Assembly (NCBI RefSeq): GCF_040436345.1
Contig: NC_133223.1
Location: 17,461,113-17,525,112, forward strand
Origin: Pagrus major
Lineage: Eukaryota; Chordata; Actinopteri; Spariformes; Sparidae
DNA length: 64,000 nt
Direction: 5' to 3'
In this document: positions 17,490-23,935 of the stretch, piece by piece
Numbering within the stretch: the stretch's first letter is position 1
How the letters are laid out: each line of letters starts with the position of its first letter
Notes under the pieces: generated by a model
The model's database searches: none
Seen by the model: only the letters and a program-made list of their open reading frames with translations
Told to the model about the DNA's origin: nothing
Position numbers and translations under genes: made by a program

Positions 17490-17665
17490 ATTTACTGCTC
17501 TTCGTCCTTCATGTTTAGGGCGTCAGGAGCCAAATTGCGGAGCTTCGGTCTGGTTGTTTTCCAGGCCCTTTGAAGGAAGCTATCCGCCGTCTATTGTCCT
17601 TGGTAATAAACTTGCTGCTTCCCTCGTTCAAGTTCTCTGGGCTGAGAAATGTTGCCTTGAATCTC
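17490..17665 (-). pseudogene. hoxd13a: Decayed hoxd13a homeobox exon
   Basis: Remnant of a group 13 Hox homeobox, at the place and orientation expected for hoxd13a. Read on the minus strand, 17638-17624 encodes R-E-L-E-R and 17613-17581 encodes K-F-I-T-K-D-N-R-R-R-I. Both match the recalled Hox13 homeodomain (LQLKELEREYATNKFITKD, then RRRI). Between them only 10 bases remain where 15 are expected, a 5-base loss that shifts the frame; staying in the first frame hits TAG inside the second block. After RRRI the sequence degrades to a lone I-W in place of IWFQNRR, with about 9 extra bases before it, then a TAA at 17517-17515. An AAGGACGAAGAG near 17500 may be the former basic tail. No exon 1 can be recognised with confidence. 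The protein cannot be functional. Paralogue identity rests on position plus the Hox13-specific FITKD block. Confidence 0.82.
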
Positions 17666-20450: not shown

Positions 20451-21338
20451 GTACATTATTTGCCTTCAAAATGTAAAATAACAAGCATTGTATGGTGACT
20501 TACATACCATTTTAATATGCAAATATAACATGTATTAAATTCTGCCAGGTCTGCAGGTGATGAATGTGTCACATGTGGCTCGCCTGATGGCTCAATGGGA
20601 CTAACAATCAATAACGAAAAATCCAGCCCAGTGGCAGACCGAAAAGCATAGTGAAAGCGAGGTTTATAGAGAACCAATCTATATGTGGATTCATTTTTTC
20701 TACAGCCATTACACTGTGCAATCAGTATTTACTCCAGAATTATAAGTTAAAACAAAAAAGTTGTATATTGGCAGTTGAAATTATTGTATTTTTTTATCAA
20801 CATGTTGTTGTTTTTTTGGCTTTGGACATCAAAATTGCATGTCAACTCATTTTTGAATTTATAGACCAATTTGATACTTAAATGCGGCATTTAACTGACA
20901 GTATGATTTAAAGTAACATTTCTTTCCCCCTTTCTTCTTCTTCTACAGTGTAGTGTAATATGACCATATGTAAGTAGTTAGTGGTTAATGACAACTGGTA
21001 ATAAGTACTGAGATGTTAAAGAATCTAATCAGAATGTGAAGGAATCATAAATGAATGGTTAAAGCATATACTACTCTGCACTAGTTGATTAAACATGCAC
21101 CTATTGATCGATTGATGATTAAACTACTGTATTGTGTTAACTTGGAATAAAATGTAGCCAGAAAAGTAAGAGTGAAATCATGTAACTAGATATACCACAC
21201 TTTTATTATTTTTTAAAATGCAGTACAAAGAGTGATCAAAGCTAATGGGATATATTCAGAGGGAAACTTGTATAAAAAGCTAAGGCCTGAGTCACTAAGA
21301 GCTAATGGTGTATTCTGAGGAAAGTGCCTCTTTTTTTT

Positions 21339-21599
21339 AATAACCAATGGCAGGACATGGGCAGGTCCATTGCAAAACTCAGGACTTTCCAAGGGAAAAT
21401 ACCCGTGTCAGCAGCTTTGGCTCTGAAGCCACATGTAATCTGCAAAGTAACCAGTGACTTAATTCTGACTCTAATTCTGATTTGCCTTCAAAATGTAAAA
21501 TAACAAGCATTGTGTGGTGACTTATAACCAACCAATAACCAACGACAGGACATGGGCAGGTCCATTGGAAAGCTCAGGACTTTCAAGGGAAAATACCCC
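21339..21599 (+). promoter_or_regulatory. Duplicated block upstream of the lectin gene, with kappaB-like site
   Basis: About 65 bases at 21339-21405 (AACCAATGGCAGGACATGGG onward) recur with few changes at 21535-21599. The first copy contains GGACTTTCC at 21382-21390, a good NF-kappaB half-consensus (GGRNNYYCC); the second has GGACTTTCA. The block lies 215-475 bases before the lectin start codon, where a promoter is expected. That it drives the lectin gene is inference. Confidence 0.4.
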
Positions 21600-21813
21600 C
21601 AAAAGTATTAGATCAGATCAGTTGTTCATGGCCATTGTCTGTGTATGATCTCAGCTCTTACTGCTGGCAATAAAAGCTCAACTGCACTCAGCTTTTGAGG
21701 ACTCCTGGAGAGTATGTCCTTTTTTATTTTTTTATTGGATCCTTTTTGAAACTCTGAAAAACCTTTTCGAACAAACAAAGAAGAAGAAGTCGAGACACGA
21801 CAACCGACAAGAC

Positions 21814-23086
21814 ATGACTTACCCAGAACATGTCCGCTTGAGGTAATGTAATCAGGAGTGTTTTTACAATTCATAGATATTGTTTCTTATTTAAAAATGT
21901 AGCTGGAGGAAGAAAAAATATTGACCAACCACATGAGTATGTCATGTAGAGTTAGGTTAGCGAGTTAAGAGTTTCTATTTAAAATTGTACACAGGTATTA
22001 TTACCCTGTTAAAGTTAATATCTAATTTCTTTCCAACTGTAAACAACAGATGCACTTTTTGTGTTTGTGAGGGGAAACTATTAAGCATAAGCCTTTTTTT
22101 GTCATAGTTTTGTAGGTGAAACTGCCTCAGAAGCTGTCACAGAAGAAGAGACACAACACAACTGCATGAAGAGACTGCGATCCAGCTGGCATGCCATTCT
22201 GACTGGGGTTCTGATGATGCTCCTCTGTGTTGTGACCAGCTACCTCTTCATTCAAGAGCTTCAAATAAAGAACAGCCACCTGAAGCCACTCCTGAACTCT
22301 ACTCATCAAAACTCCAGCGAGTGTGGCCATATGACACTGCTCATTGACGCAATGCTGTACAACTTCACCTCGTTGTCTGCTGAAAAGACCAAGCTGAGCC
22401 TGCTCCTGCAGAACATATCGCAAGAAAAAGCTCAGTTGAGCCTGGACCTGAAGAACACATTGCAAGACAAGACACAGTTAGAAGAGGAGAACAGAGAACT
22501 GTTTCTCAATTCAACAATTAAAAAAGAATTAAATAAACAGCAGCAATCAATCCTGTTCTCCAACAAGCTGTCCTTCCTCTGGCGACTCTGCGACAGGAAC
22601 ACACTGCAGTGTTCACGCTGCCTGCCTGGCTGGGTCGAGCACGCTTCACGCTGCTTCTTGCTTTCCAAAGACACAAAGAAGTGGGAAAAGGCTCGCAGCG
22701 ATTGTCTCAACATGGGGGCTGATATGGCTGTGGTTCTGAATGCCGATGACCAGGCATTCTTGACCAACATGACATTTCAGTTTGTACAGCAGCACCCTGA
22801 AGAGCAGTTCCATTCAGCGTGGATCGGGTTGCAGGACATGGTGATGGAGAACGACTTCTTCTGGGTCACTGGCCAAAGAATCCATCCAAATGTGACTTAT
22901 TGGATTAGTGGTGAACCAAACAATATCATGGCCTCCTGGGACAACAGCGGAGCGGGACAGGACTGTGTTGCAATTGTCCCACCAACAAGCACCGAGACGC
23001 AGGGTTGGTTGAACTCCTGGGATGATATCATTTGTGCTGGCAAACGGCACTACCTGTGTGAAACCACAGCTCTCAGTGTGACCTGA
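21814..23086 (+). CDS. Type II membrane C-type lectin-like receptor (two exons)
   Basis: A probable cell-surface carbohydrate receptor of the CD209/CLEC4-like group. Exon 1 is 21814-21842, encoding MTYPEHVRL and ending at GAG/GTAATG. Exon 2 is 22108-23086 after a pyrimidine-rich GTCATAG acceptor; the phase-2 join is exact. Without exon 1, translation could start at 22166 (306 residues). The spliced protein has 335 residues: an acidic cytosolic tail (FVGETASEAVTEEE), one membrane segment (about 37-58), a coiled-coil-prone neck, and a lectin domain (about 178-328). The domain has paired cysteines, WIGL, an EPN motif (279-281, family rule: mannose-type binding) and W-D-D at 314-316 in place of the usual W-N-D. 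Seven N-glycosylation sequons are present. The whole lectin domain is in one exon. No ITIM or YxxL motif is seen in the tail. An intact reading frame inside a Hox cluster is unexpected. Confidence 0.85.
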
Positions 23087-23204
23087 CTGACTGGGATGAT
23101 AAAGGCTCGAATCCCAAAATTTTGATTTTATGATTTATTATGATATTATTTTGAATTTGTTACCAATTCTTATTTTTTTTTAAGTGTAGCTTGCTTAAAC
23201 AACT

Positions 23205-23675
23205 GAACTATATGGGGACTTGTTTTAAAACGTTGAAATATTATCGGAGAAAAAACATAAGTGGCTCATTACAGCTCGTCCGGTGTAATCCAAGTCTTCA
23301 AAAGCCCAGAGACCAACAATTGATTTGAAAGTACGGTTTTTAAACTCTTTTAAAGCCAAAATCATCACTGAAGCTGCTAAACTTAAAGCGTTTGCGCACA
23401 CCAAGTGGATACATTGACTGTGTGTTGAGGTTGTGAATATTGTCTTTTGACAAGCGACATGGAGCTATTTTGTGATGATGAGAGGCCAAATTGATTTGAA
23501 AAGCTAATATTAACAACCTCATCATAAGTTCAAAATAGTGTAGTGCACCCACATGGTGTGCGCTAATGCTTTTAGCGTAGCGGCTACAGTGAAGATTTTG
23601 GCTTTAAATGGGGGAAATAACGTCTTTTCAAATCAATTTGGGACCTTGGGGCTCCTGAAGACAAGGATTAAGATA
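23205..23675. mobile_element. Miniature foldback transposon, degraded copy (family of 45455)
   Basis: Shares ATGGGGACTTGTTTTAAAA, GTGGCTC-TACAGCT and AAGCCC-GAGA blocks with 45455-45976. Internal inverted arms are visible (AATTGATTTGAAA near 23320 and TTTCAAATCAATTTGG near 23630). Begins about 120 bases after the lectin stop codon. Confidence 0.6.
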
Positions 23676-23679
23676 CTTT

Positions 23680-23935
23680 AAATTACTTTTAAGGCACTAC
23701 ACAGCTTAACTCCTGTTTACATCTCCGAGCTACTCACCGCTTACACCACCTCTTAGATCATCCAACCAGAATCTCTTGGCTATACCACATACTGAACTGC
23801 TCTTCTGAAGTCTTAGCACCCAGACGATGGAACAATTAGATCAGCCGAATCCCTTGTTTGTTTCAAAAAACTCTTAAAATCACACTTTTTAAATCTGGCT
23901 TTTAAAGGATCTTAACCCTGTGGTTATGTTTTCCT
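23680..23935 (+). mobile_element. LINE reverse-transcriptase 3' end remnant (L2/CR1-like)
   Basis: Conceptual reading, with several stops and shifts, gives the pattern of a LINE ORF2 C-terminus: a tract like ALHSLTPVYISELLT, then RSAESLVCFKKLLKSHF. It is dead and truncated. The subfamily is not resolved. Confidence 0.6.

Follow-up and report, generated by a model that had tools for sequence, protein, structure and literature searches.

A young, 5′-truncated lectin receptor gene behind a solo LTR in the HoxD region of Pagrus major

Foreign genes and retroelements are usually said to be scarce in vertebrate Hox clusters. Host genes driven by an LTR are known as a class, and processed retrogenes are moved copies that have lost 5′ sequence and from which the introns have been removed. 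In a literature search, none of the matches listed concerned a lectin gene within a Hox cluster, judging by titles and abstract openings. Among fish lectins, the DC-SIGN subgroup of the group II C-type lectins is overrepresented in Fugu (PMC514892). Here we describe a gene in a 64,000-nt stretch of the Pagrus major genome (the window; contig NC_133223.1). The receptor is of a known kind and its location is unusual: this is a young copy that has lost its head and now has an LTR as a cap.

The window contains homeoboxes which we take to be those of hoxd11a (5756-5583, minus strand), hoxd12a (12930-12748, minus strand) and evx2 (31752-31892 and 32349-32450, plus strand). evx2 is oriented opposite to the hoxd genes. 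A probable relic of the hoxd13a homeobox lies at 17575-17616 on the minus strand (SKFITKDNRRRIAS; E 0.04 against a homeodomain sequence), with QPRELER in another frame just upstream. The match is weak and its assignment to hoxd13a is plausible. Percomorphs are reported to be without hoxd13a (PMC5168715), and the host fish is presumed to be a percomorph. The first-pass annotation had placed a lectin gene between a hoxd13a relic and evx2, and this position is borne out by homeobox matches on either side, that of the relic being only probable. Between the lectin gene and evx2, the segment 25880-27815 holds nested inverted and direct repeats with arms of up to 119 nt, which are several copies of one hairpin-type repeat.

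The gene occupies 21814-23086 on the plus strand and is an intact two-exon type II C-type lectin of 335 amino acids with 7 sequons. The coding part of exon B (21814-21842, 29 nt; the exon starts at 21807) contains the surviving ATG and ends at the donor AG/GTAATG. It is followed by a retained intron (21843-22107) that can be aligned with paralogues and by the main exon (22108-23086; acceptor TCATAG), which encodes the rest of the tail, the membrane segment, a two-unit neck, the lectin domain and the stop, all on the plus strand. The two exons, 21814-21842 and 22108-23086, join in frame. A hydrophobic segment of 19 residues spans residues 40-58, the sequons are at residues 73, 78, 95, 112, 144, 230 and 271, and EPN occupies residues 279-281 (counted by eye). 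The neck is built from two tandem 42-nt (14-aa) units at 22395-22479 (plus strand). The product has the layout of a type II group II lectin receptor, namely a short N-terminal tail, one membrane segment, a neck and one C-terminal lectin domain, with the type II topology predicted from hydropathy only.

Pfam Lectin_C matches the protein with an E value of 2.8e-12 (47.7 bits, cut-off 22.6). The sole other Pfam row, UPF0242, falls on the coiled neck and is below its cut-off (E 0.0043). Sequence relatives in the PDB include the IgY receptor, the mannose receptor, Mincle, CD23 and DC-SIGN. An AlphaFold2 model of the lectin domain, made with 7 alignment rows, had low confidence (mean pLDDT 41.6) and was not used. 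The splice sites, the cysteines and the WIGL-type core are intact. Neither a tyrosine signalling motif in the tail nor a charged residue in the membrane segment was seen by eye. The canonical ligands at calcium site 2 include the E before DC (E-D-C) and WND. The window lectin has EPN, but it carries GQDC and WDD at two other calcium-ligand positions. Because GQDC and WDD are found in every aligned copy that reaches that stretch, sugar binding may be atypical. The receptor may bind glycans or pathogens.

The 785.9 Mb genome (25 contigs) was searched with the window lectin. The search returned 65 matching rows, many of which are distant lectins or several rows of a single locus. Close copies are present on several chromosomes, the best being 82% identical over residues 2-331, and the existence of these paralogues excludes a chance origin of the lectin frame. 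Twelve loci were read, in 14 pieces; rows at C2:25.17 Mb and C23:28.75 Mb are among those outside this count. The paralogues share a gene body of approximately 4.4 kb. In 3/12 loci the frame stays open all the way from the membrane segment through the lectin domain: the window copy, C9b (C9:19.20 Mb) and a copy on C4 (19.50 Mb). The other 9/12 are frameshifted, truncated, rearranged or without the lectin domain.

Several members of the family have unusual forms. The open frame of the C4 copy (C4:19.494-19.511 Mb) runs to 1591 aa, contains 78 repeat cores and 73 sequons, and closes with an intact lectin domain, and the C19 copy (C19:21.5 Mb) has a 1331-aa frame with 54 repeat cores, 63 sequons and a broken lectin domain. 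Repeat cores (unit 14 aa) and sequons in these two frames were counted with simple patterns. A giant glycosylated stalk of this type may merit its own study. Segments at C23:28.69 Mb and C2:25.22 Mb are 98.8% identical in two aligned blocks (2.4 and 7.1 kb), and in each the lectin domain points the opposite way from the lectin N-terminal part. Further lectin fragments that match each other, about 47 and 64 kb from these segments, suggest a larger recent interchromosomal duplication.

In the paralogues exon A, and exon B where present, precede a single main exon. Exon A (ATGGG...AG/gtaatg) is present in C9b, C13, C19 and C23a. Exon B, which resembles exon A, is present in C9b, C13, C4big and C12b, while C19 and C23a seem to be without it. 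The C9b exon B, 36 nt long by eye, starts after ttctatag and keeps the frame. The window copy is homologous to C9b, C13 and C4big only from 20474 onwards, a point within the intron that precedes exon B. Both exon A and the sequence found upstream of it in relatives are missing from the window copy. The gene had been described as a full-length receptor; its membrane segment, neck, EPN, seven sequons and open frame stand, but comparison with the paralogues shows that the native first coding exon and the upstream region are absent. What remains of the truncated intron upstream of exon B (20474-20948, plus strand) ends in the original exon-B splice acceptor.

The block spanning the left junction (20458-20502, plus strand) includes 16 nt of non-lectin flank. 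A copy 98% identical to it is found at 21480-21524, inside the LTR described below, and the block is in none of the other loci compared when up to 6 substitutions and no gaps are permitted. Since the junction block is duplicated inside the LTR, misassembly at the left edge is unlikely, and the left junction is probably real DNA rather than a contig join.

A solo LTR of 854 nt, in the same sense as the lectin, lies at 20949-21802 on the plus strand. It starts with TGTAGTGT and ends with ACACGACA. The insert separates the splice acceptor of exon B from the ATG, and its 3′ end is 11 bases before the latter. The target-site duplication is ACAG on the left (20945-20948, plus strand) and ACCG on the right (21803-21806, plus strand), with one mismatch between them. 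A genome search with the LTR gave at least 76 matching rows (40/380 candidates scored). Among these matches, a start at the first base of the element is frequent, as is an end at query position 854 or 855. Perfect 4-bp duplications, read by eye, flank two further solo copies: ATTC for the one on C6 and GTGA for the one on C7. The element has the TG...CA ends, short target-site duplication and dispersed copies of a solo LTR and is without an internal region. Two LTR copies on C7 enclose 2.5 kb of sequence in which no open frame reaches 150 aa. On the same contig, 12 scored matches of this LTR family lie within 188 kb (C7:2084211-2271807), spaced roughly 8-28 kb apart.

The LTR contains TATAAA at 21271 (543 nt before the lectin ATG), CCAAT at 21344 and 21532, and AATAAA at 21146 and 21669. 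Upstream of the lectin ATG, a short frame starts at a further ATG (21714). These motifs, which are no proof of a promoter, are all that mark the LTR as a candidate promoter. A 60-nt stretch (21339-21398, plus strand) is duplicated at 21534-21593 (88%), and these duplicates flank the 45-nt copy of the left junction block. A young gene copy and a solo LTR lying between hoxd12a and evx2 suggest that insertions are tolerated in the interval left empty by hoxd13a.

The sister copy, C9b, lies 1.72 Mb from the window copy. The two group at 93/98, below the star threshold of the tool, in a tree in which 1/7 inner branches is starred and 4 are open. They differ at 25/684 noncoding sites (3.7%). Among 681 noncoding sites with an outgroup letter, 12 changes are specific to the window (1.8%), 10 are specific to C9b and 1 is unpolarised. 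The exon differs at 81/946 sites and the 3′ flank at 62/954, and C9b has gaps at all three coding indels, of 3, 9 and 15 nt. The lectin domain, on the C9b side, accounts for much of the excess difference in the exon, which may reflect gene conversion or selection there. The C9b lectin domain has 0.295 changes per codon, several times faster than its own intron (10/681 sites).

The 3′ flank shared with C9b extends from 23087 to 24090 on the plus strand. It contains a common hairpin-type repeat (23196-23670, plus strand) and what we take to be a LINE-like 3′ end with an ATT tail (about 23749-24090, plus strand). Homology to C9b ends at 24090, and the LINE-like repeat has other copies, on C1 and C20, that end nearby (24087 and 24083). 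Since the intron was kept, the gene arrived either as a DNA-level copy or as a LINE-mediated copy of an unspliced read-through transcript. A spliced, processed retrogene is ruled out because the intron at 21843-22107 is present and aligns with the paralogues. A precise transposon unit carrying the lectin is also ruled out, given the gene body of approximately 4.4 kb and since no shared terminal repeats were recognised by eye at the edges compared.

Codon models were fitted to 191 codons of 9 copies; C2 (a near copy of C23b), C12b and C22 were left out, and frame-shifted tails were trimmed from C4b (7 codons), C19 (12) and C23b (1). The topology was set by hand, the set includes broken copies, and gene conversion could bias the results. 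A single omega for the 9 copies is 0.873, not different from 1 (2dlnL 0.81). On the window branch, whose coding length is about 1.9-2.0%, omega is 0.80, also not different from 1 (LRT 0.08). Log likelihoods under the site models are -2071.6 for M0, -2058.4 for M1a and -2053.7 for M2a, and M2a places 35% of sites at an omega of 2.07. M2a is preferred over M1a (2dlnL 9.46, P about 0.009, 2 df). The lectin domain of the family is under mixed purifying and diversifying selection. Because the site models show this mixture, a mean omega near 1 was rejected as proof of neutrality.

Private amino-acid changes in the lectin domain were compared with sites invariant in the other copies (leave-one-out; 77/186 sites invariant). 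This test used 8 copies, with C12a in the codon models but outside the test, and its P values are uncorrected. None of the 7 private changes of the window copy falls on an invariant site (binomial P 0.024; permutation on constrained-site probability P 0.003). The corresponding counts are 8/27 in C9b, 8/17 in C4big, 5/10 in C13, 1/8 in C23a, 3/10 in C23b, 1/2 in C4b and 6/9 in C19. None of these 7 copies reaches P<0.05, the closest being C9b (0.064, 0.055) and C23a (0.088, 0.126). This result favours constraint on the window copy, though there are few changes (7), and some of the branch may be older than the move. Since the intact C4 copy shows no such avoidance, the test is no clean marker of function. 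In neutral simulations with substitutions only, at 1.8% divergence, the frame remained stop-free in 44%; it would not be unusual for a copy as young as the window lectin to have kept its frame intact. Recent arrival or selection had been proposed from the open frame, together with a dN/dS check. Recency holds, given the sister copy C9b and 3.7% noncoding difference, while selection is favoured weakly, by the private changes and not by omega.

We put the probability of the following history at roughly 0.6. A piece of about 2.8 kb, beginning within the first part of the gene and ending where the LINE-like repeat ends, would have been copied from a C9b-like source, a member of a chromosomally dispersed family of DC-SIGN/Mincle-like type II lectin genes. 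This young duplicate would have landed in the interval between the hoxd13a relic and evx2, with the native first exon and promoter region either missing on arrival or lost later. The solo LTR would then have inserted into the exon-B splice acceptor, which would place its 3′ end just ahead of the in-frame ATG that survives. Should the gene be in use, its transcript most likely starts in the LTR, or at local HoxD promoters, and is spliced from 21842 to 22108. The product would be a surface lectin with a short two-unit neck. An unexpressed passenger is compatible with this account. We infer that the lectin may be expressed and the LTR used as its promoter; any transcript probably starts in LTR or HoxD sequence.

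The same history could also have left a promoterless duplicate that is open only through youth, unused and decaying, and we give this outcome a little under an even chance. It fits the missing first exon and upstream region, the window-branch omega, the broken state of most loci read, the stop-free simulations and the agreement of the coding branch with the noncoding rate (12/681). It is opposed by the intact splice sites, cysteines and WIGL-type core and by the 0/7 count at invariant sites, as compared with broken C13, C19, C23b, C4b and C23a, the last being nearest to avoidance. Recruitment of a functional gene to the posterior HoxD landscape, with fin, genital or tail expression under evx2/hoxd enhancers, is improbable; the position between hoxd12a and evx2 and the open frame would be consistent with it, but the LTR provides a separate start. 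On the route of arrival, copying of an unspliced read-through transcript by LINE machinery, rather than DNA-level duplication, is an alternative to which we give somewhat less than an even chance. The 5′ truncation inside an intron and the end of homology near the ends of the LINE-like repeats on C1 and C20 speak for it. Conversely, no target-site duplication was recognised, the (ATT)n array could equally be the breakpoint of a DNA-level duplication, the read-through transcript is hypothetical and the LINE label is tentative. Repeats at both edges might hint at an assembly artefact joining a lectin locus into HoxD. Such an artefact is very improbable, as the window is without N, the contig is chromosome-scale, the junction block occurs twice here and in no other locus compared, and the window copy differs from the other copies read. 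The strongest form of the preferred history, in which the LTR re-promoted a headless lectin and placed a fast-evolving pathogen-recognition receptor under mixed LTR and posterior-HoxD control with the cluster unbroken, is unlikely.

Compared with processed retrogenes, the window copy likewise has moved and lost its 5′ part, but it retains an intron. It resembles LTR-driven host genes in having a same-sense solo LTR directly before the start codon, the LTR promoter here being putative. Its WDD and GQDC set it apart from the Fugu DC-SIGN group, in which we take WND and E-D-C to be canonical. The 23-aa neck units by which CD209/DC-SIGN orthologues are recognised are replaced by 42-nt, 14-aa units, and Mincle and the mannose receptor score better than DC-SIGN among its PDB sequences. 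Of the Fugu DC-SIGN-F genes, 4/8 are in one cluster (PMC514892), whereas the Pagrus major copies are on several chromosomes. The window lectin also differs from that group in having membrane segment, neck and lectin domain in one exon. Otherwise the two are alike: both have a single C-terminal lectin domain and a predicted type II topology with a neck, and both are expanded in fish without clear tetrapod orthologues, with DC-SIGN and Mincle among the PDB matches of the window lectin. The human DC-SIGNR neck has units of 23 aa as opposed to 14 aa here (2 in the window copy, about 78 cores in the C4 copy), and, as in the window lectin, it is repeat-built, extended and projects the lectin domain (PMC2971551).
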